DNA of 64,000 nt, taken from Natrarchaeobius oligotrophus. Lineage in GTDB: Archaea; Halobacteriota; Halobacteria; Halobacteriales; Natrialbaceae. The notes beneath the pieces were generated by a model. It made no database searches and was not told the DNA's origin. It saw only the letters and a program-made list of their open reading frames with translations. Positions 39,764-56,328 of this stretch are shown here, one piece after another. Both the position numbers and the translations under genes were made by a program. Where the stretch lies: contig NZ_REFZ01000009.1 in the NCBI RefSeq assembly GCF_003841465.1, positions 1-64,000 of the forward strand. The letters are read 5' to 3'. The first letter of the stretch is position 1, and every line of letters starts with the position of its first letter.

Positions 39764-40600
39764 TTACACGCTGAGAAGACCGTCGTCGTCTTCTCCATCG
39801 TCCTCGTCGTCATCTCCGCCGCCGTTCGCGTCTTCGTCGTCCTCGTCGTCACCTTCGTCGTCGTTCACGTCATCTTCCCCGTCCGCGTCGTCTTCTTCAC
39901 CGTCTTCGGCATCGTCGCTCTCGCCATCGTCGCTCCCGGCGTCGTCTTCGCCCTCGAAGTCGACGTCGTCGGACACCGCTTCCATCAGAGTCACGACGTT
40001 CTCGCGCTCCTGTCGCTCGAGGTCCCGGGGGTAGACGCCGATGGCGACGACCAGGTCGTCGCCGGCCGAGACGGCCTCGGTGACGTGGAGGTAGACCTCG
40101 ACGTCCGAGCCGTCGAACTCCGCGTCCGCAGCGAACGTGGACATGGTCGTCGACTCGCCGAGGACAGTCACTTCGCCGTCAGACTCGTGGACCACGTCGT
40201 CGATGCCGTCGTAGTTCGCGACGACCAGATCGACCAGCTCCTCGGTCGATTTGTCCTCGACGGGGTTGACCTGGCGACCGGCGATCGAGATCCGCGGCGT
40301 CGAGAGGACCATAAAGACCGCACCGCGAAGCCTGCCGAGCGGACCCATGTCCACGGCCTTTTCGTGTTCGGTCAGCTGGTTGCGGACGACGACGGTCTCG
40401 GAGTAGCCGAGCGCACCGACGCTCTCTTCGATCGTAAGCTCCTCGACGGCTGTCAGCTCGTAGTCGGTCTCCGACCGGGCTTCGTCCTCGACGCCGACCG
40501 CTCCCGACGCGTGTTCCGCGAGTCCAGCCGCCTCGAGACAACCCGCCGCACCGACCAGTCCTGCGCTTGCGATCCCGGCGAGCAGCGTTCGACGATTCAT
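39764..40600 (-). CDS. DUF6517-type lipoprotein with acidic C-terminal tail
   Basis: 278 residues. N-terminus MNRRTLLAGIASAGLVGAAG then Cys21, a Tat-type lipoprotein signal. The body (about 35-205) matches haloarchaeal DUF6517 proteins: VVVRNQLTEHEKAVDMG, then LSTPRISIAGRQVNPVED. The last 70 residues are almost pure Asp/Glu/Gly. It would be lipid-anchored on the outside; function unknown. Confidence 0.78.
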   Translation of the reverse strand: MNRRTLLAGIASAGLVGAAGCLEAAGLAEHASGAVGVEDEARSETDYELTAVEELTIEESVGALGYSETVVVRNQLTEHEKAVDMGPLGRLRGAVFMVLSTPRISIAGRQVNPVEDKSTEELVDLVVANYDGIDDVVHESDGEVTVLGESTTMSTFAADAEFDGSDVEVYLHVTEAVSAGDDLVVAIGVYPRDLERQERENVVTLMEAVSDDVDFEGEDDAGSDDGESDDAEDGEEDDADGEDDVNDDEGDDEDDEDANGGGDDDEDDGEDDDGLLSV

Positions 40601-40836
40601 CAGGACTTCGGTGGCTACCCCGGAACCATAAGGATGTCGTCTCTCCTAGTGTTCGGTTTTTCATGTGAACTGTTCACCGGATGGACGGCGAGCGGTGAAT
40701 ATCGCACCGAGATGCACTGTGAACCTCTTTCGTGTCCGTTGAGGCGGTCGTTCGATGGTGTCACTGTTTTCGGTAGTTTACGCTCCTTCGCTCCAGAAGA
40801 CATTTACGCCGGACCGACTATCACCACGACCGACCT

Positions 40837-42252
40837 ATGACGCTCACACGTCGTCGGATGGTGCAAGCCACGGGTGCGGGAACGTGCGCGCTCTTGCTCT
40901 CTGGACGGAGCGCCGCGAACCCCAGCGGGGAGCACCGCGTGTTCGTCCATCCCGCCGCCGACACCGTCTCCGCCGTGATCGACGCACTCGAGGCGCTCGG
41001 CGGCGCGACGCTTCGCCGGTACGACAACTTCGACTTCGTCGCGGCGACGATCCCGGCCGCCAGCCGGGCCGACCTCGAGGCGGATTCGCGGGTCGCGCTC
41101 GTCGAAGACGACGAACCGATCGAGGCGACGGCGACGCCGGTGGACGACCTCCTCGACGGCGTCGACGACCTCCTCGAGTTCGGCGGCGGCGACGATCGGG
41201 ACTGTACCGTCCACCCCGCTCAGCAACCCGCCTGGGGGTGGGAGCGCATCGGCGCTGACGACGTCGACGAGACGGGAACCGGCGTGGATCTCGCAGTTCT
41301 CGACACGGGCATCGAGACCGGTCACTGCGACCTCGAGGTCGCCGGCGGCCGAAATTTCACGACCGACGGTCCGCCGGGCGATTACGAGGACCGGAACGGA
41401 CACGGAACTCACTGTGCCGGGATCGCCTGCGCACTCGACAACGACCTGGGCGTCGTCGGCGTCGCCCCCCAAGCGAACCTGCACGCGGTCAAGGTCCTCG
41501 GAGACGACGGAACCGGCTACCACAGCTGGATGGCCGCCGGGATCGACTGGTGTCTGTCGAACGAAATCGAACTCGTCTCGATGAGCTTCGGCAGCGAAGC
41601 CGGTACCGCGACGATGGACGCCGTGATCGAGCGCGCCCGCGAGGAGGGACACCTCCTGGTGGCGTCGGCCGGTAACGAAGGGAACGACGGCGGTGACGCC
41701 TGCGGCGAGGATAACGTCCGCTATCCGGCGACACACGAGGACGTGATCGCGGTCTCCGCGATGGATTCGGACGACTCGATCGCATCCTACAGCAGCCTCG
41801 GCGACGAGATCGATCTGCTGGCTCCCGGCTCGAGCGTCGTCTCCACCGACGTCGATAACCGCTACCGCTCCCGTAGCGGGACGAGCATGGCCTGCCCGTA
41901 CGTCGCCGGAGTCGCCGCTCTCGCCTGGGCGCGCCACGGCGAGTCGGGCCCCGGCCCGAACGACGAAATTCGACGCGCGCTCGAGGCGGCCGCGGAGTCG
42001 GTGGTCGATTCGTGTGCGGAGGGTCACGGGCTCGTCCGCGCCGCCGCCGATCTGGACGGATCGAACGGGGGGGACGACGGCGACGACGGAAGCGACGCGG
42101 ACGATTCGACCGGCGGAGGGTCGAACGGGGGGTCCTCGACCGGCGAAAGCGAGCGGACGGACGCCGACGGCGACTCCGGTCTGGGCTCGATCTGGCAGTC
42201 GGTGCTCGAGGCGATCGAAGGGCTGTTCGATCGACTTCTGGGCCGTTCGTAG
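40837..42252 (+). CDS. Tat-exported subtilisin-like serine protease (halolysin type)
   Basis: 471 residues. Tat signal LTRRRMVQATGAG, an inhibitor-like propeptide to about residue 115, then the S8 domain. Catalytic Asp156 (AVLDTGIE), His189 (NGHGTHCAG), oxyanion Asn280 (SAGNEG), Ser350 (GTSMACPYVAG). A Gly/Asp-rich linker ends in a short amphipathic helix instead of the long C-terminal extension of classical halolysins. Secreted endopeptidase; the triad is intact. Confidence 0.93.
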   Translation: MTLTRRRMVQATGAGTCALLLSGRSAANPSGEHRVFVHPAADTVSAVIDALEALGGATLRRYDNFDFVAATIPAASRADLEADSRVALVEDDEPIEATATPVDDLLDGVDDLLEFGGGDDRDCTVHPAQQPAWGWERIGADDVDETGTGVDLAVLDTGIETGHCDLEVAGGRNFTTDGPPGDYEDRNGHGTHCAGIACALDNDLGVVGVAPQANLHAVKVLGDDGTGYHSWMAAGIDWCLSNEIELVSMSFGSEAGTATMDAVIERAREEGHLLVASAGNEGNDGGDACGEDNVRYPATHEDVIAVSAMDSDDSIASYSSLGDEIDLLAPGSSVVSTDVDNRYRSRSGTSMACPYVAGVAALAWARHGESGPGPNDEIRRALEAAAESVVDSCAEGHGLVRAAADLDGSNGGDDGDDGSDADDSTGGGSNGGSSTGESERTDADGDSGLGSIWQSVLEAIEGLFDRLLGRS

Positions 42253-42414: not shown

Positions 42415-42774
42415 GTGGACCCGTTCGAATCTCTCTCCGCGCTCGAGGACATGGACGCCGGCCTCTCGACCGACGAGGTGTTGCGATTGCTCTCCGACGC
42501 CCGAATCCGGACGATCGTCACGTATCTGTACGATCGGCCGGACGCGACCCTCGAGGAACTCGCCGCGATCGTCGCCACCGTCGAAGCCGCGCGATCGTCG
42601 ACGATCGCGACGCCGACGGATTACGAACGTGCGACCGTCGAACTCTACCATTCGACTCTACCCCGCCTCGACGACCACGAGTTCGTCTCGTTCGATCCGG
42701 ACGAGGGGATCGTCCGCGCGACGGACGTTCCACCGCCGGTTCACGCGCTTCTCGGCATCACCGACCCACAATGA
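42415..42774 (+). CDS. DUF7344-type winged-helix protein
   Basis: 119 residues from GTG 42415; ATG 42451 is an alternative start. LSTDEVLRLLSDARIRTIVT through LYHSTLPRLDDHEFVSFD follows the DUF7344 pattern seen also at 20716. There is no membrane helix, so a soluble DNA-binding role is likely. It overlaps the DICT gene by 4 bp, which suggests the two proteins work together as regulator and sensor. Confidence 0.78.
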   Translation: MDPFESLSALEDMDAGLSTDEVLRLLSDARIRTIVTYLYDRPDATLEELAAIVATVEAARSSTIATPTDYERATVELYHSTLPRLDDHEFVSFDPDEGIVRATDVPPPVHALLGITDPQ

Positions 42775-43493
42775 ATCCGTTTCACACTGCCCTCGAGACG
42801 GTCGAGCGTCACCGCAAACGCCTCGACGTCTACACCGACGACGCCGAGGTCGCAGCCGAACTCAAACGACAGTTCGAAACCCGCAACGCGGACGTGGGCC
42901 ACCATCCGGTCACCGGATTCGACGAACCCGGATTCGTCATCGTCCGGGGCTCGGACGACGAGTTTCGCGGCGGACTCGGCCTCGATCAGTTCGCGGCGGT
43001 GCTCTCTCCGGAGGTTCATCCGCCGTGGGAAATCGGGACCTCCGAGGCCGACTCCGGCGATCTGTTCAGCTTTCTCGATAACACGCTGTTCACCGCGTAC
43101 AGCCGTCGACAGCTGCTCGCAGCCGCCCGCGAAATCGAGGAACGAGCCTGGCGCGCGGCCGGCGGCCACCTGTACACCGGCTTTCAGCGCGAGGAGGCGC
43201 TTTCGGACCAAACGGCGGTGTACGAGCGCCTCGCCGACCGCGGGGATCTCGAGACGACCGTCTTCGTCGCCGACGGATGGACGGTTCCGTTCGAGGACGT
43301 AGAGGTCGTCGTCGATTCCGACGGCGAGGTCACCGAGTTCTGGTTCGTCCTCTTCGACGGCGGTGGCACCGAACTACAAAAGTCCGGACTCGTCGCGGAA
43401 AATCGACGAGCGGATCGGTACCGGGGCTTCTGGACGTACGATCCTGATACCGTCGACGAGTTGATCGCGTACCTCGAGTCGGCGGTCCGCTGA
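42771..43493 (+). CDS. DICT sensory domain protein
   Basis: 240 residues. VYTDDAEVAAELKRQFETRN, a conserved middle with FSFLDNTLFTAYSRRQL and REIEERAWRAAGGHLYTGFQ are typical of haloarchaeal DICT domain proteins, which are associated with light or redox signalling. No output domain is attached; the partner is probably the winged-helix protein translated just before it (ATGA overlap). Confidence 0.78.
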   Translation: MNPFHTALETVERHRKRLDVYTDDAEVAAELKRQFETRNADVGHHPVTGFDEPGFVIVRGSDDEFRGGLGLDQFAAVLSPEVHPPWEIGTSEADSGDLFSFLDNTLFTAYSRRQLLAAAREIEERAWRAAGGHLYTGFQREEALSDQTAVYERLADRGDLETTVFVADGWTVPFEDVEVVVDSDGEVTEFWFVLFDGGGTELQKSGLVAENRRADRYRGFWTYDPDTVDELIAYLESAVR

Positions 43494-44614: not shown

Positions 44615-47600
44615 ATGAACCTACCAGAACGAATCTTTTCGACGGGGGGAGCAGGAAAAAAGATCGCTTTCGAACTGTTGGAATCGGAGTGGGTGCTCCG
44701 CGAGATCCTACGACCTCGCCCGAACCCACAGTCGGTCACGGTTACGATAATCGACACCGCCGAGGAAGAGGAGAATTCGGACCGACAGCGCATCGCGGAT
44801 ATTCGGGAGAACATCGCGTCGATCAAGGACGAACTCCGTTCCACGGACAACGGCCGTCCCGGCGACATCGACGTCGAGTACAAGCTGATCACGCGAAACA
44901 TCCAGCTCAACGACCAGAACGATCTCATCGGAGAGAGCGCGGTTCCCCGAATCACCGCCGGCAACGGAATGGACGAGGAGAACTGGTGGGTGGAAGAACA
45001 ACACATCAACGAAAACCTCGACTTCGCGACCGGCGTCGTCCGAAAGCGGGGTCTCGGAAAGGCGATGTACTACAAGGCCTACGCCGAAGACGACGAACTC
45101 TCGACGTACATCGACCTCCCCGATAAGGGGAAAGTCGCCGTTCTCTCCGGTCTCGGTGGCGGAACCGGCTCGGGACTCATCATCGACCTCGCCCGCCACC
45201 TCCAGCAGAAACAGCGAACCGCCGAGATCACGCTTTTCGGTATCCTTCCGAATCACACCGAGGGAATCCGCGAGAACGCGAACGCGTTCGCCGCGCTCTC
45301 GGAACTCGAGTACCTCAACCTGATCGGCGAACCGGCGTTCAAAGACCGAATTCTGTTGCCGATCGATCCCACCGACTTCGACGGAAAGGGCGGGAACAAG
45401 ATCCAGAACAGCCAGCTCCTCCAGGAGTTCGACGAGGCGATCATCTACCTGATGGCCGCCTACTACAACACCGTCGGAACCGAGGATCCGTTCGCCGACG
45501 CGCCCGACTACGCTCCGTTCACGATCGGGGTTCCACAGATCCTGCGGTACAACGTCGAAGCGATAAACGAGGGCAGGACCGCGATCCGGGAGATCCTCAA
45601 CTGCAAGCAGGAGGCCGTCCAGGCCGAACGAGAGATTTACACGAAGCTCGAGCGGTTCCTCGACAACCAGTACGGCGGTCCGACCGGGGACGGACTCCGT
45701 GACCTCGACCGGGCGGACCTGAACAGCCGGCTCGACGACGCCCAGTCGCTGCTCGAGTTCGAACTGTTCAACGAACTCGAGTACGAGTCGGTATCGATCT
45801 TCTCCGACATCATCACCGACGCCGAAAACGAGACCGACGACGTCGGCGAGCGAATCGACATCATCTCAGGGTCGCTTCGCGCCGTCGATACGACGGGCAA
45901 AGAGGCAGGACGGTTCGTCGACACCATCGACGAACACCTCGCTGAGGTCATCGAGGCCGACCTGCAGGCGATCGTCCAGCGGAACCGGTTGCTCATTCAG
46001 AAGCAATCGATCGACGACAACCGCGTCAGGGACGCCGTCGAGTACCTGATCGGCAGCGACGACGGGAGCGGCAATCCGGGCGTGAAGCTGAACCGACTCG
46101 AAACCCAGCTCGAGGACATCGAGTCACAGCGGGATAGCCGGGAAACCGAACTCGAGGAGACGCTCGAGGAACTCGAGACGCTCGAGCAACAGCAGGCCGA
46201 CGAGATCGACCGCAAGGTTGGAAACTGGATTCGGGATGCGACGACCGACATCGAACAGTACCAGGAGATCGACGTCGACGGCGTCGAGAACGACCTCTCG
46301 TCGCTGACTCGCGCGCTCGAGCAGTTCCGATCGGAGGTCGTCAACGCCAAGGCGGAAGACGAGGTCGACCGGGTAGGCACCCAGGAGATCACCCAACAAC
46401 TCGACGATATCGAACGCAAACTCGAACGCGCCGGCCTCTCGTTCGGCGAGCACCGAAGCGACGTCAAAACCTCGACGGCGGCGCTCAAAGAGGCGCGAAA
46501 GGCGTTCCTGACCATGAACGAGGAAGAAGGGACGCTGGAAAAGCTCACGCCGTGGTCCGGAAAGACGGAGCAAGCGAAAGAGGAGGCCCACCGGAACTTC
46601 CGCGTCCAGAAGAACAAGATCGAAGACCGCGGCGTGTTCAGCGTCGGCCCGCCGGGAGCGTCGTTCAGCGCGGAGGTCACGTACGACGGCCAGTCGGTGA
46701 CCGCCGACCTGCGGGATCGCGAACAGACGCTCCAGAACGAGATATTCGCCTCGCTGCGCGAACGCCTCGACGACCTGTCGGACGAGCACCGACGCGAGGT
46801 GGAATCGGTCCTGGATCGCGACGCGTCGATCGAGCGACTCCGCGACATCGCCCGGGACGCCTTCAAAGACGAGATCGAGGGAACGGACGAGGTCAAAGCT
46901 CGCAAGAACGAGATCGAAGACGAACTCGACCAGCTCGAAACGGACCGCGACATCTACGAATCGACGATCGATCTGTTCGAGGAGTTGAATCAACAGCGAG
47001 AAACCTACTCGGACCGCCTCGCCGAGTTCAACCGGAAACAAAACGAGTACGAAACCGAGTCCACCCGGTCGGTATCGACGGAGCGCGAGGACTCCGCCTA
47101 CATCAAGACCACGAAACCGAACGACGTCTTCCGGGTGACGGGAGACGAAGGAATCGGCGAGAGCGACCTCTTCTCTAGCAAAGAGGAGAACCAGCGCACC
47201 TACGGTGCCCTCGAGGATCTCGTCGAAAACGTCTTCAACGAACGGTACTCCGGGATCAAGCGCCGTCGATTCAGCAAGGGACGACAGCGGTACGACGACA
47301 TCAAAATCCGCGTCGGCGTCCTGAGTCAGGCCGTCGATCAGATCGACCCGGACGCCATCGACTTCGAGAACCGATTCAACAACGCGTTCGACCTCGGCGC
47401 GACTGGCAATCGCGTCGAAAACCCGTACACGAGCTGGCAACACGACATCGGCGACAAGTGGGACATCGGCCTGTGCGTGTTCATCGACGGCATCTTCCTC
47501 GACAACATCCGGAAGATGGTACAGGCCGACGGCTACCGGGCGGGCTACGAGACGCGCCGATCCGAACTCGGCGACGACATCCTCGTCCACCACAACTACG

Positions 47601-47842
47601 GCCTCGAGGACGGATTCTACGTCCGAAGAGCGAAGACGCTCAACATGGAAGACGAGGACGACGCCGGCTTCTACCTGCAGGACGAGTCCGACATCGTCGA
47701 CGAACTACTGGAACGATACGTCGAGACGGTTCCAACGAACGACTCGGCCGACGCCGGCGTCGACGCCGGCGCTGGAACCGACGGGCAGTCCGACGACGAG
47801 GGCGAGATCCAGTCGTACGAGTACAGCGGTGAGATGGAATGA
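44615..47842 (+). CDS. large tubulin-like GTPase-domain protein with coiled coils
   Basis: 1075 residues. The N-terminal domain carries the tubulin/FtsZ phosphate-loop signature GLGGGTGSG at 179-187, and a first nucleotide loop FSTGGAGKK at 8-16. Strand and helix order around them (VTVTIIDTAE; KVAVLSGLGGG; EITLFGILP) fits the Tubulin_2-like group rather than CetZ or FtsZ, which are about 400 residues. Long charged helical stretches (about 490-535, 590-640, 770-930) predict coiled coils. A C-terminal globular part (about 930-1050) is followed by an acidic tail. It overlaps the membrane GTPase gene by 4 bp. I infer a nucleotide-dependent filament or scaffold attached to the membrane through its partners; polymerisation is untested. 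Confidence 0.82.
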   Translation: MNLPERIFSTGGAGKKIAFELLESEWVLREILRPRPNPQSVTVTIIDTAEEEENSDRQRIADIRENIASIKDELRSTDNGRPGDIDVEYKLITRNIQLNDQNDLIGESAVPRITAGNGMDEENWWVEEQHINENLDFATGVVRKRGLGKAMYYKAYAEDDELSTYIDLPDKGKVAVLSGLGGGTGSGLIIDLARHLQQKQRTAEITLFGILPNHTEGIRENANAFAALSELEYLNLIGEPAFKDRILLPIDPTDFDGKGGNKIQNSQLLQEFDEAIIYLMAAYYNTVGTEDPFADAPDYAPFTIGVPQILRYNVEAINEGRTAIREILNCKQEAVQAEREIYTKLERFLDNQYGGPTGDGLRDLDRADLNSRLDDAQSLLEFELFNELEYESVSIFSDIITDAENETDDVGERIDIISGSLRAVDTTGKEAGRFVDTIDEHLAEVIEADLQAIVQRNRLLIQKQSIDDNRVRDAVEYLIGSDDGSGNPGVKLNRLETQLEDIESQRDSRETELEETLEELETLEQQQADEIDRKVGNWIRDATTDIEQYQEIDVDGVENDLSSLTRALEQFRSEVVNAKAEDEVDRVGTQEITQQLDDIERKLERAGLSFGEHRSDVKTSTAALKEARKAFLTMNEEEGTLEKLTPWSGKTEQAKEEAHRNFRVQKNKIEDRGVFSVGPPGASFSAEVTYDGQSVTADLRDREQTLQNEIFASLRERLDDLSDEHRREVESVLDRDASIERLRDIARDAFKDEIEGTDEVKARKNEIEDELDQLETDRDIYESTIDLFEELNQQRETYSDRLAEFNRKQNEYETESTRSVSTEREDSAYIKTTKPNDVFRVTGDEGIGESDLFSSKEENQRTYGALEDLVENVFNERYSGIKRRRFSKGRQRYDDIKIRVGVLSQAVDQIDPDAIDFENRFNNAFDLGATGNRVENPYTSWQHDIGDKWDIGLCVFIDGIFLDNIRKMVQADGYRAGYETRRSELGDDILVHHNYGLEDGFYVRRAKTLNMEDEDDAGFYLQDESDIVDELLERYVETVPTNDSADAGVDAGAGTDGQSDDEGEIQSYEYSGEME

Positions 47843-49296
47843 TAGGTAACGTCGCCGATGCAATCCATACGCATCGGGAGAAGGTGACGCTCGTCAGCTA
47901 CTTCGGGATCATGCTGGTCCTGACGGCTCCGCTGGCGACGCTGTTCGGATCCGCCTACGAGGAGGGACACCTCTCGCGAGCGGTCATCGACCTCCACCAC
48001 CTGATCGACGTCATCGACCTCGAGGGGATCAGCGTCTTCCTGCTCGGCATCTTCCTGGGACTGCTCGTCCTGATGACGATCGATCCTAAAAAACGCTGGC
48101 AGGGATATCTGCTCTGGATCGGGCTCGGTATCGCGATGCTCGGTCTCCAGTCGATGGGACTGTTCATTCCGAACATCGAGTTCACCGATACGTCGAATCT
48201 CACCTGGCTCGGTATCGGTCTCGTCCTCGGGTTGGTCGCCGGCGGTGGACGAACGCTCTTGCGGACGCGGACCGCCGAAGCCCTCGAGTTCAGGCGCGCG
48301 GCCTTCGGGATTTACCTGATGGTCGTACTCCTGATCGTCGGCTCCCTGTTCGAGTATCACGTGACGTATCCGGAGTTCGTCGAGGTTTCGCCGGAGGGGC
48401 TCGTCGTCTACGCGATCGAAAACCCGGAGTTCGCCATCGAGAGCGAGGGGCTCCTTCGCAACGTCGCGATCGCCGGTGTCTTCGTCGTCACGATTCGGAA
48501 GTTCATCCAGTACGATTCGAAAGAGGACTTCTTCGTCCTCGGCCCGCCCGCCTCCGGCAAGAGTCTGTTCCTGATCGGCGCGTACCTCGCGGCTATGAAC
48601 CGCAATCCGAACGACGAAGCGACTAACAAGACGCCGCTCCATCCGAGCCAGGATCTGATGGAGATGGTGCAGAACCTCGACCAGCGCTCCTCGGGGTGGA
48701 TCGTCGACGCGACCGGACAGGGCGAGATCAAGAACCTCGAGTTCCAGTACGTCCACGGCTCGACGTTTCCGAAGAACGTCAAGATAGAGAGCATCGACTA
48801 CGCGGGCGAGTATCTGAGCCGGTTACCCGACGTGTTGTCCGGTGCCGTCGCCGAGGAGGACACGGACAACACGCTGTTGCGTCTCTCGCAGGGCGTCGAG
48901 GAGGCGGATACGCTCATCCTGTTGCTCGACACCGAACGGTACGTCAACGGTGAGGCGCTCGACATCTCGGAGTACTTCAGTCTACTCCAGGCCGTCGATA
49001 ACACGAGCGTGTTCATCGTCGCGACGAAAGCCGACATCCTCGCCGAACGGTTCCGGGAGGACGAAGGCATCGAAGCTCACCTGGCGTTCGACGAGTTCAA
49101 AGCGTACGTCGGGAGGGAGCTCCGCCAGAGCGAGCAGGTCGATGCGCTCATCCGCCAGACGACGGGTGCGCAGATTCACCCGGTCTACTACCAGACGCGG
49201 GTCAACGAGGACGGCGATCGAGTCCCGATGCGCGACGACACGGGCTCGGTCATGACGATCGGCTTCGACCAGTTGCTGAACGAACTCGGACGGTGA
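47839..49296 (+). CDS. membrane-anchored P-loop GTPase-like protein
   Basis: 485 residues. Five to six membrane helices lie in the first 220 residues. A cytoplasmic P-loop domain follows, with GPPASGKS (235-242), a switch-like SIDYAGEY (D320) and TKAD (396-399) in the place of NKxD. These suggest a TRAFAC-type GTPase related to the double-GTPase (DO-GTPase2) proteins that occur with Tubulin_2-like proteins in bacteria; the family link is from memory. Start ATG overlaps the tubulin-like stop (ATGA), and the next gene starts 6 bp after its stop, so the three are surely co-translated. It would anchor or gate the tubulin-like scaffold. Confidence 0.8.
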   Translation: MIGNVADAIHTHREKVTLVSYFGIMLVLTAPLATLFGSAYEEGHLSRAVIDLHHLIDVIDLEGISVFLLGIFLGLLVLMTIDPKKRWQGYLLWIGLGIAMLGLQSMGLFIPNIEFTDTSNLTWLGIGLVLGLVAGGGRTLLRTRTAEALEFRRAAFGIYLMVVLLIVGSLFEYHVTYPEFVEVSPEGLVVYAIENPEFAIESEGLLRNVAIAGVFVVTIRKFIQYDSKEDFFVLGPPASGKSLFLIGAYLAAMNRNPNDEATNKTPLHPSQDLMEMVQNLDQRSSGWIVDATGQGEIKNLEFQYVHGSTFPKNVKIESIDYAGEYLSRLPDVLSGAVAEEDTDNTLLRLSQGVEEADTLILLLDTERYVNGEALDISEYFSLLQAVDNTSVFIVATKADILAERFREDEGIEAHLAFDEFKAYVGRELRQSEQVDALIRQTTGAQIHPVYYQTRVNEDGDRVPMRDDTGSVMTIGFDQLLNELGR

Positions 49297-49302
49297 TCAC
49301 AG

Positions 49303-50778
49303 ATGGCCGAACTAACGATATACGATTCACGCGGAAAACCGTACAAGGAGTCGGGGGGAACAGGGCAACCGAACGAGTTGATCAAGAACTTCTTTTTCGG
49401 CGGGGTGAAGGTCTACGCCGATTTCGGCTCACAGACCAAGATCGCCGTCTTCTTCCGGGCGCGGGAATCGAACGCCGGCCGTGCGGAGCAGTACTACGCG
49501 GTCTACCAGACGCGCTCTCGGAACGACGTCTTCGGAAATCTCAAAGCGGACCTTCGACAGCGCGTCGAAGGGGAGTACGGGATGTCGATCCAGACGGATT
49601 CCGACGACGTCGACGTCTTCCGATCGCTCGAACAGACCCACAGCGGCGTCCCCGGATCGGAGTTCGACCACGAACTCATCGAGAAGTTGTTGAACTCGGG
49701 CCAGCGCCTTCGGTTCGGCGTCTCGAGCACCGAGGACGCCCTCGGACTGTTCGACAGGTACGGTCGACGACCGGCCCAGCGGATCGCGATCGCCGACAAC
49801 CCCGACGTCGAACAGCTCGAAAACTGCGATCTGGCGATCTCGGTCGGGAACTACAGCGGACTCGAGCCGATCGGCGAGACCGAGCGGCTGATGCGGGAGG
49901 GCCGATCCCGATACGAGGAGAAGTTCATCGGCCAGAAAGTATCGAACATCAGGGCGGAACTCTCCGAGCTACGGAGCCAGTCCACCAAGACGGACGAAGA
50001 GATCAGACACCGGCTCAAGCGGGACCTGTCGATCTTCGAATCGCCGCCTCCCAACGCACTCGGCAAGCAGGGGAAGGGCGGCCCGCTCTCACAGCTCGGA
50101 ACGAAGACGAAAGTCGCCGTCGTGAGCTTCGGCGTCGTCGTCGCCGCTTTCCTGGTTCTGCTGGTCGCCGTCAATCTGTTGGCGGTCGCCGGGTACTCGG
50201 CTCCGACCGCGACCGATTCGCTCGTCGTGGTCTCCGACGACGACGAGGCGACGCTCGAGCAGGTCACGGTCGAAGGCGCGGCGGTCCACAATTTGACGGA
50301 AGGCGGTGAGTTCGTCAACGAAACGCAAACAGTCGAACCGGTCGACGGCGAACTGACGGTGAGCGGCGTGACCAACCAGGACCACGCACAGGTCTCGTTC
50401 ACACCGGCCGACGGCGGAGAGCCGATCAACGAAACGTACAACGAGGTTACGAACGAATCGTTCTCCATCACGCTCGAGGGGATCGAAACGGGCGGCGACC
50501 TCACGATCAGCGCCGGTGAGTGGGCCTCGACCGACGAGTACGACTGGCTGATCAACGGTACCGTCACCCTCGAGGTCGAGGCGTCCGGCGACGAGAACGG
50601 AACGGACGACGCGGCGGATACCGACGACGCGACCGACGGGGACGAAACGGACGGCGAGGCGTCCGACGATACCGGGGAGACGGACGACGATGACGAAGAA
50701 GAATCGGCCGACGACGAGGAGACGGGCGGCGAGGACGATTCCGACGACGAGGAGGATTCCACCGATGAAACCGAGTAA
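49303..50778 (+). CDS. single-pass membrane protein, third component of the tubulin-like cluster
   Basis: 491 residues. A cytoplasmic N-terminal domain of about 250 residues (begins ELTIYDSRGKPYKESGG; includes KIAVFFRARES and LAISVGNYSGLEPIGETERL) has no recognised family. A basic stretch and one membrane helix (about 271-296) follow, then an extracellular beta domain (about 300-430) rich in NxT/NxS sites for N-glycosylation, and a 60-residue acidic tail. Topology suggests an adaptor that links the cytoplasmic GTPases to the outside. Shine-Dalgarno-like sequence is weak, fitting re-initiation from the upstream gene 6 bp away. Confidence 0.75.
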   Translation: MAELTIYDSRGKPYKESGGTGQPNELIKNFFFGGVKVYADFGSQTKIAVFFRARESNAGRAEQYYAVYQTRSRNDVFGNLKADLRQRVEGEYGMSIQTDSDDVDVFRSLEQTHSGVPGSEFDHELIEKLLNSGQRLRFGVSSTEDALGLFDRYGRRPAQRIAIADNPDVEQLENCDLAISVGNYSGLEPIGETERLMREGRSRYEEKFIGQKVSNIRAELSELRSQSTKTDEEIRHRLKRDLSIFESPPPNALGKQGKGGPLSQLGTKTKVAVVSFGVVVAAFLVLLVAVNLLAVAGYSAPTATDSLVVVSDDDEATLEQVTVEGAAVHNLTEGGEFVNETQTVEPVDGELTVSGVTNQDHAQVSFTPADGGEPINETYNEVTNESFSITLEGIETGGDLTISAGEWASTDEYDWLINGTVTLEVEASGDENGTDDAADTDDATDGDETDGEASDDTGETDDDDEEESADDEETGGEDDSDDEEDSTDETE

Positions 50779-50840
50779 CGCCCGCGGTATCGGAGTCGTA
50801 TCGAGACGACGGCTGTCCCGTGACGAGGGGAGGTACGCCG

Positions 50841-52154
50841 ATGACCCGCTCGTGTAACCGCCGCCAGGCGCTGGCCGCGATCGGCGGTGCCGCCCTCGCG
50901 ACGGGAACGCTCGGCCCGATCGGAGCCGCGGCAGCCGACGCCGGCGATACCGTGTACGTCGGCGAGGACGGCAATTACGTGCGCGCGCTCGACGTCTCAG
51001 ACGGCTCGGAACGGTGGAGTCGCCGCCTCGGCACTCGAGTCACCTCGCCGCTTCCGACGGTCTGGAACGGAACCGTCTACGCGGCCGTCGCCGCCGATTC
51101 CGAGACCGTACACGCCCTCGACGCCGACGACGGATCCGTGCGGTGGACCGCCTCGACGGAAGGGACTGCACGGACGCATCCCACGGTCGTCGACGGCGTC
51201 GTCTACGTCGGCGACGAGGAGGGAGTACTGACCGCGCTCGATGCGGCGGACGGAACGACGAAGTGGGAGTTCGAAGCGAACAGCGCGATCCACGCTTCGC
51301 CGACGGTCGCAGGGGGAACGGTGTATTTCGGCTCGGACGACGGAAACGTGTACGCGATCGACGCCGACACCGGCGGCGAATCGTGGTCGTTCGGAACGTC
51401 GAATCGGGTTCGAACGACGCCCGTCGTCGACGGTTCGACCGTTTACTTCGGATCGGACGATCAGTACCTCTACGCCGTTTCTACGGCCGGAAGTGAGCGG
51501 TGGCGGTACGAAACCGACGGATACGTTCGGTCGACGCCGGTGGTCGACGACGACCACGTGTACGTCGCATCGGCCGACGAGACGCTCTATGCGCTCGAGC
51601 GATCGGACGCATCGGAAGTGTGGGAGTTTTCCACCGTCGACGTCGCGCGAACGACGCCGATCCTCGACGACGGAACGCTGTACATCGGCTCCGATAACGG
51701 CGATCTCTTCGCGGTGTCGACCGACGACGGTAGCAGAGAGTGGTCGTTTTCCACGGCGCGTCCCGTCCGCTCCTCGCCGACGCTCGCCGACGGAACGGTG
51801 TTCGTCGGCTCCGACATCGAGTCGCTCTTCGCGATCGACGCCGAGACGGGCGTCGAGGAGTGGGAGGTCGAGATGACCGGCGCCGTGCGCTCGTCACCCG
51901 CAATCTCGCGTGCCGACGAGGGTCCCGCCGACGAGGAAGCCGGCGACGAAGCGGACGAAGCGGAGGACGCGGACGACGAACCCGCGGACGAGACGGAAGG
52001 GGACGACGATGAATCGGACGAAGCCGCGACCGACGACGATGCCTCGCAATCGGACGAACCCGAAGTCGCGTTCGAAGTTCCGGGATTCGAAATCGCAAGC
52101 GCGCTTCTCAGCATCGGCATCGTGAGCTACCTCCTGAAAAAACGCGCCGATTGA
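50841..52154 (+). CDS. Tat-exported PQQ-type beta-propeller with PGF-CTERM-like anchor
   Basis: 437 residues from ATG 50841, preceded by GGAGGT; a GTG at 50820 is in frame. Tat signal NRRQALAAIGGAAL. Eight or so blades of the PQQ/BamB-like repeat follow (GTVYFGSDDGNVYAIDADTG and variants). An acidic linker of 60 residues then leads to VPGFEIASALLSIGIVSYLL and KKRAD. PGF followed by a hydrophobic helix and basic residues is the archaeosortase-A signal, so the protein may be cleaved and lipid-attached. It lies 62 bp after the single-pass protein and probably forms an extracellular interaction surface for the cluster. Confidence 0.82.
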   Translation: MTRSCNRRQALAAIGGAALATGTLGPIGAAAADAGDTVYVGEDGNYVRALDVSDGSERWSRRLGTRVTSPLPTVWNGTVYAAVAADSETVHALDADDGSVRWTASTEGTARTHPTVVDGVVYVGDEEGVLTALDAADGTTKWEFEANSAIHASPTVAGGTVYFGSDDGNVYAIDADTGGESWSFGTSNRVRTTPVVDGSTVYFGSDDQYLYAVSTAGSERWRYETDGYVRSTPVVDDDHVYVASADETLYALERSDASEVWEFSTVDVARTTPILDDGTLYIGSDNGDLFAVSTDDGSREWSFSTARPVRSSPTLADGTVFVGSDIESLFAIDAETGVEEWEVEMTGAVRSSPAISRADEGPADEEAGDEADEAEDADDEPADETEGDDDESDEAATDDDASQSDEPEVAFEVPGFEIASALLSIGIVSYLLKKRAD

Positions 52155-52355
52155 CTCCCTCCACACGGCTGAAAAACCGACGCCGAACCGGCGAACCAAC
52201 GAGCGTTTGCCTCTCGCACTTTGGAACGAGACAGTTCGCACACCGGATCCGGTGAGCGGTCGGAGCCGTCGGCGAGCGGCCACGAGACGAAGGCGGTTGC
52301 AACGCTCATCCCACAGTTTCGTCCGGACCAGTGTAACTCGTTGCAGTAATCCGTC

Positions 52356-54782
52356 TCAGTCGTCCTCGATGAGTTCCGCGAGTTCCTCGAGTACCGCTTC
52401 CGGCTCGGTCCCGGTAACCGCGTATCGGACGAGTTCGCCGATCTCGTTTCGCTGGTAGATCCAGGCTTCCCCGGCCGGCTCGGGAACTCCCCACTCGGCG
52501 CTTGACCGAATCGCATCGACGTACGGTTCGTACGGCGTCGAATCGAAGAGCCCGTCGGCGAGCGGTCCGCGACCGAACGGGATTTCGGACCGACTGTCGA
52601 CGATCGCCTCCGCAAACTCCGACGACCGGAACGCACTCGCCACCTCGAGGCTCTCGGCGAGATGTTCCGTGTTCGGGTTCAACGCGACGTACGATCCGAA
52701 GGCGGTCGTCGCCGGCCTCTCGGGTCCCGTCAGGCCCGGGACGATCCCGATATCGTCCGCTCCGAACTCTTCGATCGCGTTGAACGCGAACGACAGGGGC
52801 ATCTGCGCGGCGACGGCTTCCCGCTCGAAAAACAGCTCCTGGACCTCGGGGAGCCCGAACGAAAAGACGTCTTCGGTGGCACACTGCTGGATGGACAGCG
52901 CCGACCGGTCGTCGCCGGTCACGAAGTCGTGGACGACGTTCGCCGCCTCGACGGCCGCCGACGACGCGACCGTTACGTTCCGTTCGCCGATCGGCCCTAT
53001 CGACGCATCCACGGTATCGTAGTACGCCCCTCCGAATCCCGATAGGACCGTCGTAAACATCCACGAGAGGTAGTTCGTATCGCCTGCCCAGATGAAGCCG
53101 AGCGGATTATTCAGCTCCTCGCGGACGACCGAGACGGCTTCCGACCAGTATTCCATCGTCGGCGGGTCGGTTATCCACCGCTCGAACTCGCTCCCGTCGA
53201 GCCCGATCTCCCGGAGCGGTTCCGTGTGGTACGCGATCACAAGCGGCGAAAACCCGTACGGAATCGCGTGGGGCTCGTCCTCGTTCGGATGGACGCTCAT
53301 CTCCCGGTACGCGGGCGGGAGGTCGGAGAACGCGTCTTCGATCCGGCCGGACGTGACGTACTCGCCGAGGGGCTCGGTCGCTTCGGCCGCCGTGAGCGTT
53401 CCCAGTTCGGCTTCGTTCACGGTCACGAGATCCGGCTGCGGATCTCCGGACTCGGCCCGAGCGCGGAGCTCTTCGACGCGCTCTGGCGAACCGACCGCTC
53501 CCGTGCGGAGTCGGATATCGACCTCCGGCGGAACGCCCGCGTCGTCGGCCACGTCCTCGAGCGCCTCGAGCCACGACCGGTGACCGACGTCGACGTGGAC
53601 GGTTCCGCCGCTGACTGCGTCCGGACCGGACTCCGCATCGTCCACCGGGAGGGATCCTCCGGTCGAGTCGTCCCCGGCGAGGAGCGGATAGCCGAGGTAC
53701 GCCGCGCCGACGCCGCTCGCCACGACGGCGCCGTACTTGAGGACGGCTCGCCGCGAACCGGATCCGCTCGCGTCGGCCTCTCTCGTCGATTCGCCGACGT
53801 CGGCCGCGGTCGTCTCCGACGTCCGGTCTGCTTTCGGTCCGCCGTCGTCCGTGCCGGACGGTTCGTCCGAATCGTCTCGCTCGTCGGCCGCATCGACGTT
53901 CTCACGGTCGGGAGCCGGTGTCCCGACCGCCGCGATCGGATCGGTGTTTCGCTTCCCGGTCGCCGGAACGTCCTCGAGCAGGTCGAGTCGGAACTTGTGG
54001 GTCGTCGGATACCTGTCCGCCGGATCGACGGCCGTCGCTCGAGCGATCGTCGATCGAACACCCTCCGGCAGCGTCGCCTCGTCGATTCCGTCCCGGATCG
54101 CGTTCGCGAGCGCGTCGGGATCGTCGTCGTCGTCGATCCCCTTGGGAAACGGCGTCGATCCGGAGAGCAGGTGCGCGGCGAGGACGCCGACTCGATACAC
54201 GTCCGTGCGCTTGCTCGCGTGCTCGCCGACTTCGAGCTGTTCGGGTGCGGTGTACGGCGTCACCGGCGGATCGCTCGCGAGCCTGCTGAGTCCCCAGTCG
54301 TCGACGACGGCCACGGGGCCGTCTGATCCGTCTCGAACCGAGAGGCAGTCCGGGTGGATCGCGAGGTGGTGAGAGGTCGATCCGTACCGGCTGTAGGTCC
54401 GAACGATCTCGCAGACGTCGCCGACGAGTTCGGCGTTCGTGCGGTCGTCGCAGTCGGCGACGGCGTCGACCATCTTCCCCGCTGCGTACCGTTCGATTTC
54501 GGCCGGCTCGTACTCGACGGCGACCCACGGTCTGGGGTCGCTCCCCCAGTCGACGACGTTCCTCGCCGATTCGCGATCGGCGATCCCCACCCACTGTCTC
54601 AACAGATCGTCGAACCGACCGAGACTCGAGTCGGGGATCTCCCGCTGTAACGTCCTGATCGCGACTGGCTTTCCGGCCCGCGTCCGTCCGGTGTACGTTC
54701 GCCAGTGCGTTCCCGATCCGGCTCGCTCTCGGACGACGCACGTCACGTCGTGGCCGGTGAGCTCCTCGTCTCGCAATCCCAT
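52356..54782 (-). CDS. kinase-like domain fused through a membrane helix to a solute-binding domain
   Basis: 808 residues. Residues 10-275 follow a Ser/Thr kinase fold: Gly-rich AGSGTHWRTY, VAIR where VAIK is expected (Lys to Arg, R43), HPDCLSV for HRD, DDWG for DFG (D162), APE at 179-181 and DVYRVGVLAAHLLSGSTPF. The altered Lys and HRD suggest a pseudokinase or a weak kinase. After an acidic linker with RR, one helix (about 346-368) crosses the membrane. Residues 380-808 form an extracellular family-1-type solute-binding protein (IPYGFSPLVIAYHTEPLREI). A one-protein receptor: outside ligand, inside kinase-like module. It converges on the propeller gene with a 201-bp gap. Confidence 0.8.
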   Translation of the reverse strand: MGLRDEELTGHDVTCVVRERAGSGTHWRTYTGRTRAGKPVAIRTLQREIPDSSLGRFDDLLRQWVGIADRESARNVVDWGSDPRPWVAVEYEPAEIERYAAGKMVDAVADCDDRTNAELVGDVCEIVRTYSRYGSTSHHLAIHPDCLSVRDGSDGPVAVVDDWGLSRLASDPPVTPYTAPEQLEVGEHASKRTDVYRVGVLAAHLLSGSTPFPKGIDDDDDPDALANAIRDGIDEATLPEGVRSTIARATAVDPADRYPTTHKFRLDLLEDVPATGKRNTDPIAAVGTPAPDRENVDAADERDDSDEPSGTDDGGPKADRTSETTAADVGESTREADASGSGSRRAVLKYGAVVASGVGAAYLGYPLLAGDDSTGGSLPVDDAESGPDAVSGGTVHVDVGHRSWLEALEDVADDAGVPPEVDIRLRTGAVGSPERVEELRARAESGDPQPDLVTVNEAELGTLTAAEATEPLGEYVTSGRIEDAFSDLPPAYREMSVHPNEDEPHAIPYGFSPLVIAYHTEPLREIGLDGSEFERWITDPPTMEYWSEAVSVVREELNNPLGFIWAGDTNYLSWMFTTVLSGFGGAYYDTVDASIGPIGERNVTVASSAAVEAANVVHDFVTGDDRSALSIQQCATEDVFSFGLPEVQELFFEREAVAAQMPLSFAFNAIEEFGADDIGIVPGLTGPERPATTAFGSYVALNPNTEHLAESLEVASAFRSSEFAEAIVDSRSEIPFGRGPLADGLFDSTPYEPYVDAIRSSAEWGVPEPAGEAWIYQRNEIGELVRYAVTGTEPEAVLEELAELIEDD

Positions 54783-55110: not shown

Positions 55111-56328
55111 GTGGAATACCGTCGTACCGCCGTTATCAAACTCGACACTTCTGAAGGAGCAGACGACTCCCTCCGAGAGACTGTCGAGCAGTTCAAACAC
55201 TGTGCCAACACCGCGAGCGAGTGGTGCTGGCACGGCGACGACGGATACCATGTCACTTCCAAAGCGAAAGCCGAACGCGCTCTCTACGACCGACTCCGCG
55301 ACGAAACCGACCTCACCGCAAATCTCGTCCAGAAAGGGATTCGGCGGGCGGTCGAAGCCGTTAAAAGCGGAGTCGAACGTCTCAAACGTGGCGAGAATAC
55401 GTCTCAACCGCACTTTTCTGCCGATAGCGCGGTCTACGACAAGCGGAGTGCGACGTTCCACCGCGACCACGTTTCTCTATCAACCATAGACGGGCGCGTT
55501 GAGTGCAATTACATCCTTCCCGACGACTCGGAGACACCGCCGACGAAGTACGTCTCCGGCGAGGACTTCGAGTTTCGGATGGCCCACCTCCAGTACCGCG
55601 ACGGCAACTGGTATCTCCACGCTTCGATGCGGAAAGTCAAAGTAGACGAGGAATCGCCTGAATCCGAGTCCAAGCACAGAACAGTCCTTGGTGTGGATTT
55701 GGGCGTGAACAACCTCGCCGTTGCTTCGACTGGGCGATTCTGGTCAGCAGACGAGTTCAATCACTGGCATCGAGAGTACGAAAAGCGCCGTGGGTCGCTT
55801 CAGCAGTGTGGTTCTCGACACGCCCACGAAAACATCGAGAGCGTTGGGCGGAAAGAGTATGGTCGGTTCGAGATATACCTGCACACGGTGGCGAACGAAC
55901 TTATTGAGGAGGCCCTCGAGACCGACTGTTCGCATATCGTGTTCGAGGACTTGACCCACATTCGGGAGAACATTCCCGAAGCGACGTGGCAACACGTCTG
56001 GGCGTTCCGACGCCTCTACGAGTACGTCGAATACAAGGCCGAAGAACACGGCGTCGAAGCCGTGCAGGTTGACCCGCGAAACACGTCGAAGCGTTGCTCA
56101 ACGTGTGGGTTTACCCACGATGACAATCGCCATCAAGAATCGTTCGAGTGCCAAAAGTGCGGGTACGAGAACCACGCCGACTACAACGCAGCGAAGAACA
56201 TCGGTTTGCAGTATCTTCGTCGTCGGCAAAATGCAGGCGACGGAGGCGCACCCGTAGATGTGCGCTTGAATCGCGGGACGCTGAACGTGAGCGGGGAGTA
56301 CATACCCCCTGCCTCTGTTGAGGCATAG
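55111..56328 (+). CDS. tnpB: TnpB, RNA-guided endonuclease of the IS605 family
   Basis: 405 residues from GTG 55111. RuvC catalytic residues are present: D196 (GVDLGVNNLAV), E279 (VFEDLTHI) and D357 (NHADYNAAKNIG). A zinc ribbon has Cys329, Cys332, Cys347 and Cys350. The N-terminal wedge/REC-like part and length are normal, so the nuclease looks intact. TnpB cuts DNA guided by an RNA from its own 3' end and promotes retention of the element. The coding sequence is somewhat less GC-rich than neighbours, consistent with a mobile origin. Confidence 0.93.
   Translation: MEYRRTAVIKLDTSEGADDSLRETVEQFKHCANTASEWCWHGDDGYHVTSKAKAERALYDRLRDETDLTANLVQKGIRRAVEAVKSGVERLKRGENTSQPHFSADSAVYDKRSATFHRDHVSLSTIDGRVECNYILPDDSETPPTKYVSGEDFEFRMAHLQYRDGNWYLHASMRKVKVDEESPESESKHRTVLGVDLGVNNLAVASTGRFWSADEFNHWHREYEKRRGSLQQCGSRHAHENIESVGRKEYGRFEIYLHTVANELIEEALETDCSHIVFEDLTHIRENIPEATWQHVWAFRRLYEYVEYKAEEHGVEAVQVDPRNTSKRCSTCGFTHDDNRHQESFECQKCGYENHADYNAAKNIGLQYLRRRQNAGDGGAPVDVRLNRGTLNVSGEYIPPASVEA

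Follow-up and report, generated by a model that had tools for sequence, protein, structure and literature searches.

A haloarchaeal FtsZl1 locus with a conserved three-gene core and exchangeable accessory genes: a possible signal-gated, GTP-driven membrane assembly

In this study, we analyse a 64,000-nucleotide stretch of DNA from Natrarchaeobius oligotrophus (hereafter the window) and describe within it a member of the FtsZl1 system. Our favoured reading, to which we give about an even chance of being correct, is that of a haloarchaeal FtsZl1 operon in which a constant core of three genes (P1, P2 and P3) is combined with exchangeable extracytoplasmic sensors, the products forming a signal-gated, GTP-driven membrane assembly. 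The five genes and the parts of their products are as follows.

P1, 44615-47842, + strand: FtsZl1/Tubulin_2 protein of 1075 aa (Pfam, AF2, Foldseek, alignment), with a GTPase head (~1-312), a predicted helical/coiled-coil arm (~314-815) and a C-terminal alpha/beta segment (~826-1040)
P2, 47839-49296, + strand: predicted polytopic membrane GTPase of 485 aa (homolog alignment, DO-GTPase2 matches), with a membrane part (~1-215) and a GTPase domain (~228-485; GPPASGKS, DYAGEY, TKAD)
P3, 49303-50778, + strand: single-pass protein of 491 aa (alignment, AF2 model, Foldseek), with a cytosolic alpha/beta domain (1-190), helices (192-243), a TM segment (275-295), an Ig-like outer domain (318-425) and an acidic tail
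P4, 50841-52154, + strand: accessory exported PQQ-type (BamB-like) beta-propeller (PQQ_2, 200 bits)
P5, 52356-54782, - strand: accessory kinase-like/solute-binding fusion of 808 aa (Pkinase, SBP_bac_1), with a degenerate protein-kinase-like domain (~1-300), a twin-arginine membrane anchor near 344 and a predicted extracellular solute-binding domain (~390-805)

All five reading frames lie where the first-pass annotation had placed them. The stop codon of P1 and the start codon of P2 share an ATGA overlap, as read from the sequence, P2 and P3 are separated by 6 bp, and the gap between P3 and P4 is 62 bp if P4 starts at the ATG at 50841 (a GTG at 50820, upstream, is also open), while P5 is convergent to P1-P4. 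The total GC content of P1-P3 (0.61-0.63 vs 0.65) is low because of their amino-acid composition, GC3 being normal (0.82-0.85 vs a window mean of 0.81), and a recent horizontal island was rejected on the same ground. In the surroundings, a TnpB/OrfB-type IS605 protein with a Cas12f1-like TNB domain (55111-56328, + strand) and a lower GC content (0.57) adjoins P5, a DICT-domain protein (42771-43493, + strand) that is not a recurrent neighbour among relatives lies upstream of the trio, and a DUF6517 protein and a subtilase whose N-terminus resembles a twin-arginine signal are divergently encoded (39764-42252).

A conserved order of all five genes had been expected at first pass; the gene order of relatives instead shows that only P1-P2-P3 are constant, consecutive and on one strand in ~25 haloarchaeal loci from five families, with P1 identity down to 37%, and that P4 and P5 are accessory. 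Named Halorubrum, Haloarcula and Salinibaculum genomes are among the hosts. Since P1 scores 43 bits for Tubulin_2, well over the cut-off of 27, and the trio is adjacent in ~25 other loci, the gene set is more than a chance arrangement. P1 matches at E 1e-20 occur in 41 of the 392 genomes of the order, a count that takes in a diverged clade where, at most loci, P1 has an additional membrane protein next to it. Tubulin_2 also extends to further families of the phylum. In four of the loci fetched (L122, L123, L124 and L132), from genomes without a P1 match at E 1e-20, P2-P3 occur without P1. The pair must therefore have some function for which P1 is dispensable, and in these loci it may be a stand-alone GTPase/receptor pair. 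Additionally, more distant P2 homologs are accompanied in L131, L133, L134 and L140 by a different downstream gene of 410-440 aa, which may represent a diverged P3.

P1 scores 43.2 bits against the Pfam family Tubulin_2 (cut-off 27) and 33.1 bits against PF00091 Tubulin, and a Tubulin_2 match is present in 38/38 of the P1 homologs scanned. Its AF2 model (pLDDT 84.5, pTM 0.63; 38 sequences) contains, in FtsZ order and with names assigned by the order of elements in the model, S1 (6-10), H1 (11-23), S2 (40-47), S3 (84-91), S4 (173-179), the T4 loop, H4 (184-199), S5 (204-211), H5 (218-236), S6 (244-249), H7 (262-284) and a strand at 302-312. When this model was compared with the PDB by Foldseek, the top 50 matches all belonged to the tubulin superfamily (E 1.4e-5 to 4e-4) and included TubZ, gamma-tubulin, CetZ2 and FtsZ; among the matches listed, the highest per-target TM-score was 0.52, for CetZ2 (4b45). 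The first-pass annotation, which had read P1 as a tubulin-superfamily GTPase and made that reading hinge on a tubulin GTPase fold in a structure prediction, is thus borne out by both the Tubulin_2 score and the predicted fold. Kinship with SMC proteins was discounted, the weak SMC matches (E ~1e-3) spanning the coiled coil only.

The motif GLGGGTGSG lies at residues 179-187 of P1. Across 38 aligned homologs, G11 and G14 of T1 and G181, G182, G183, G185 and G187 of T4 are invariant, the T4 motif GGGTG(S/T)G having its five glycines fixed and its other two positions occupied by T/S and S/A. Because these T1 and T4 glycines are invariant in 38 sequences, binding of GTP by P1 is very likely. A T7 loop with catalytic acidic residues is a feature of canonical FtsZ, CetZ and tubulin. 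Between H7 and the strand at 302 (the T7 region), no acidic residue is invariant among the 38 homologs, D291 being present in 25/38, and canonical inter-subunit (trans-acting) GTP hydrolysis is therefore not assured for P1.

Beyond the GTPase head, the model shows helices with one short strand pair at 314-815 and a mixed alpha/beta region at 826-1040; late conservation is densest in the C-terminal part, where D963, Y978, H993, G1000 and R1005 are invariant. Two genomes (G056 and G302) encode arm-less P1 paralogs of 560-562 aa, both away from the trio.

L042, 3931-5613, - strand: arm-less FtsZl1 paralog
L148, 8154-9842, - strand: arm-less FtsZl1 paralog

These paralogs match P1 over residues 1-321 and 815-1039 and lack everything in between, and their T4 is degenerate (GGATSG). 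Given the AF2 layout and the existence of such natural arm-less forms, the long helical region of P1 appears, on the simplest reading, to be an arm that interrupts a single tubulin-type head and not a linker to an independent domain, and the modelled C-terminal strands may complete an FtsZ-type second domain. In the 2010 paper on the family, the FtsZl1 C-terminus was described as mostly alpha-helical, T6-H7 could not be placed, the C-terminal domain could not be related to known ones, and 'present but extremely diverged' was given as one option for the missing tubulin elements (PMC2875224); the predicted structure of P1, together with the paralogs, favours that option. Within the tubulin superfamily, FtsZl1, which is found in both bacteria and archaea, ranks with the most diverged branches. 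Its discoverers left two questions, namely whether the protein still contains the missing tubulin elements in an unrecognised form and whether filaments are formed at all (PMC2875224). The model and the arm-less paralogs offer a concrete, testable answer to the former, and because haloarchaea that can be cultured (e.g., Haloarcula and Halorubrum species) carry the compact core of three genes, the filament question can be tested with existing genetics.

P2 has 4-5 hydrophobic segments, all within its first 215 residues, and strongly conserved GPPASGKS (P-loop), DYAGEY and TKAD motifs downstream of this membrane part; D82, G235, G240, K241, D320, G323, D399, F420 and G475 are invariant in 40 homologs. 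DO-GTPase2 is matched by 18 of these 40 (best E 3.1e-5) and DO-GTPase1 by two, while the window protein itself falls below the DO-GTPase2 cut-off (E 0.018). By its sequence, P2 appears to be a polytopic GTPase with a distant relationship to DO-GTPase2, in keeping with its earlier assignment as a membrane GTPase akin to the DO-GTPases. Comparison of its sequence with solved structures returned generic P-loop, EngA and G-alpha matches, none of them convincing. The AF2 model of P3 has one TM helix (275-295) with the Ig-like domain outside, and F51-R52, R60 and T193 are invariant in 21 aligned homologs. Its N-terminal 190 residues are conserved and confidently modelled (motif FFRAxES..R.EQYYAVY), and no relative of this cytosolic domain was found in Pfam or PDB fold searches. 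The window P3 has no Pfam match, the Foldseek matches listed from the PDB are mostly Ig/FnIII-type beta-sandwich proteins aligned to the Ig-like part, and in other species the outer region carries CarboxypepD_reg repeats.

At 21 loci, related ones not being independent, 108 proteins are encoded no further than 3.5 kb from the trio, and of their families only PQQ propellers (11/108) and protein kinases (8/108) are clearly recurrent. As genomes hold 1-30 PQQ propeller domain matches each, propellers at 10% of neighbours stand far above background; the kinases were found by HMM search, a regular-expression scan being too strict and missing most. Kinase-type partners, proposed in the first-pass annotation, thus do recur beside the trio as kinase-like proteins, with P5 of the window itself degenerate. 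The beta-propellers and kinase-like proteins beside the trio come in exchangeable forms: the kinase is joined to a solute-binding domain in the window, to CarboxypepD_reg in L033, L035 and L041 and to a propeller in L034, L107 and L149, and the propeller stands free in the window and in L038. P4 matches PQQ_2 at 200 bits, carries a Tat-like twin-arginine N-terminus (NRRQAL) and a PGF-CTERM-like end (12.1 bits, below the cut-off of 18.8), and has a homolog (55%) at the same place in L038. P5 matches Pkinase at 22 bits (below the Pfam cut-off) and SBP_bac_1 at 31 bits (above cut-off), and its relatives adjoin P3 in L033, L035, L041 and L119 (45-50% identity). In P5, Arg replaces the beta3 Lys and Ala the HRD Asp, the latter Asp also being missing in most aligned relatives, and the DFG-type Asp is kept (DWG); P5 is probably a pseudokinase, and Tat-type export of its solute-binding domain behind a cytosolic kinase-like domain is possible. 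A twin-arginine motif (GSRRAVLKYG) stands directly before the internal membrane segment of P5 (window 53673-53765, residues ~340-370).

In the signal-gated assembly that we favour, P2 would sit in the membrane as a GTP switch, and P3 would act as a receptor-like anchor linking the outer Ig-like domain to the conserved cytosolic domain. The sensors (PQQ propeller, kinase-like/solute-binding fusion) would alter the state of P2/P3, GTP-loaded P2 would recruit or release P1, and the GTP-binding heads of P1 would assemble beneath the membrane, with their coiled-coil arms cross-linking heads or reaching partners, so that the assembly would locally reshape or organise the envelope. The computations show membership of the family, the GTP-binding loops, a predicted fold of tubulin type, signals of membrane topology and the conserved adjacency of the trio, and we infer in this scheme a physical complex, polymerisation of P1, the direction of signalling and the membrane output; membrane remodelling was also the 2010 prediction for FtsZl1 (PMC2875224). 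In Synechocystis, a Tubulin_2 mutant (sll0445) is impaired in phototaxis, and the product associates with pilus-assembly proteins (PMC9880817). Outward-facing ligand-binding modules recurring on kinase-like anchors support signal gating, the Synechocystis phenotype supports an envelope or surface role for the Tubulin_2 family, and it is because of these two observations that a signal-gated, GTP-driven assembly is favoured. More tentatively, and at somewhat less than an even chance for its two parts taken together, FtsZl1 may be a complete two-domain tubulin head with a ~490-residue coiled-coil arm between its GTPase and C-terminal parts (an SMC-like head-plus-arm layout on a tubulin fold) and, in haloarchaea, the output component of a module that signals from outside to inside, with extracellular sensors (solute-binding domain, PQQ propeller, CarboxypepD_reg) exchanged among species on a pseudokinase chassis. 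The envelope-spanning part of the nucleotide-driven machine initially proposed is reasonable, with cytosolic, membrane and exported components; the suggestion of defence that accompanied it was not supported, and that of novelty in archaea did not hold.

A nutrient- or surface-signalling/transport regulator, and not a membrane remodeller, is rather unlikely; here, P3, the propeller and P5 would read external ligands, and a P1/P2 scaffold would control pili, motility or transporters. This alternative was raised by the reviewer G. Jekely from periplasmic-binding-protein and other neighbours (PMC2875224), and it fits the SBP-kinase fusion of the window, the CarboxypepD_reg-kinase (L033/L035/L041) and propeller-kinase (L034/L107) proteins, and the phototaxis phenotype of the Synechocystis Tubulin_2 mutant (PMC9880817). 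However, strong recurrence beside the trio is not seen for any family of motility, pilus or transporter proteins (108 neighbours, 21 loci), and a tubulin-type polymer would be unusual as a signalling scaffold.

Published predictions of conflict systems connect tubulins with DO-GTPases (Kaur et al. 2020, PMC7159879), and the matches of P2 homologs to DO-GTPase2, the patchy distribution (41/392 genomes of the order) and the variable outer domains would likewise suit a biological-conflict (anti-virus) system with P1 as polymerising effector. We regard this as improbable: no GAP1 domain was found in the window proteins, the sensors face the outside, the GC3 values of the genes fit the rest of the window with no sign of a recent island, and nearly all PADLOC matches close to the trio come from generic kinase models, beyond which no defence genes recur there, contrary to the defence role once suggested. 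Least probable is that P1 serves as a nucleotide-bound structural scaffold (GTP-binding, non-hydrolysing and non-treadmilling) tethering P2/P3 complexes; the missing conserved T7 catalytic acid and the degenerate T4 (GGATSG) of the arm-less paralogs in two genomes agree with it, but the main family has invariant GTP loops, an unusual property for a mere scaffold. We therefore favour signal-gated membrane assembly first, a pure signalling scaffold second and defence third.

The FtsZl1 family was founded by Makarova and Koonin (2010) on haloarchaeal Huta_2051 (1051 aa), beside which the Huta_2050-2056 locus holds three kinases and as many hypothetical genes, and the same paper noted membrane association of the GTPases linked to FtsZl1 in archaea (PMC2875224); the initial impression that such a system had not been described in archaea was therefore mistaken. 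The window locus is another member of this published system and of the same locus type as Huta_2050-2056, showing the family's N-terminal FtsZ-like GTPase domain that bears GGGTG(S/T)G, its long coiled coil and the C-terminal region after it, the linked diverged membrane P-loop GTPase with TxKD (P2) and the linked kinase (P5, degenerate). It shares with the archaeal operon a similar length of P1, the order of its parts (FtsZ-like N-terminus, long coiled coil, C-terminal domain), GGGTGSG, the linked membrane GTPase, kinase-type genes and a haloarchaeal host, and differs in its degenerate kinase-like protein with a solute-binding domain, its separate propeller gene and the absence of a nearby vWA gene (PMC2875224). 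A vWA-domain gene is linked in the majority of published FtsZl1 operons, being common but not universal (PMC2875224), and is thus not a defining requirement; no vWA match (PF00092) was found near the trio in 21 genomes. Contig G107:C1 carries P1-P2-P3 (36-56% identity) with kinase-like matches on both sides (2072295, 2079673 and 2084986).

The DO-GTPase/tubulin systems with GAP1-N2 (PMC7159879) combine a GTPase of a kind to which P2 may be distantly related with a coiled-coil-bearing tubulin-family protein and beta-sandwich domains, whereas the window has no GAP1 or vWA (Pfam GAP1 families gave no match to P1-P5 even at E 1), an integral multi-TM domain in P2 and an archaeal host. Compared with CetZ and FtsZ of haloarchaea, P1 shares the tubulin-superfamily GTPase head but is ~3x longer, lacks a conserved T7 acid and is encoded together with membrane partners in an operon-like array; the genome also has a short tubulin-superfamily gene that is separate from P1. 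Synechocystis Sll0445 belongs to the same Pfam family as P1, is bacterial and has neighbours annotated as FtsA- and DivIC-like (PMC9880817). In the literature, we found no experiments on archaeal FtsZl1 members and no paper demonstrating an FtsZl1 mechanism. The 2010 paper left the placement of the coiled coil unresolved, whereas the P1 model puts it as an insertion in one head; this apparent inserted arm, the lack of a conserved canonical T7 acid and the kinase missing two catalytic residues but bearing a solute-binding domain are details beyond that paper. The gene set itself is known, and the predicted shape of P1 and the swappable sensors are the new details.
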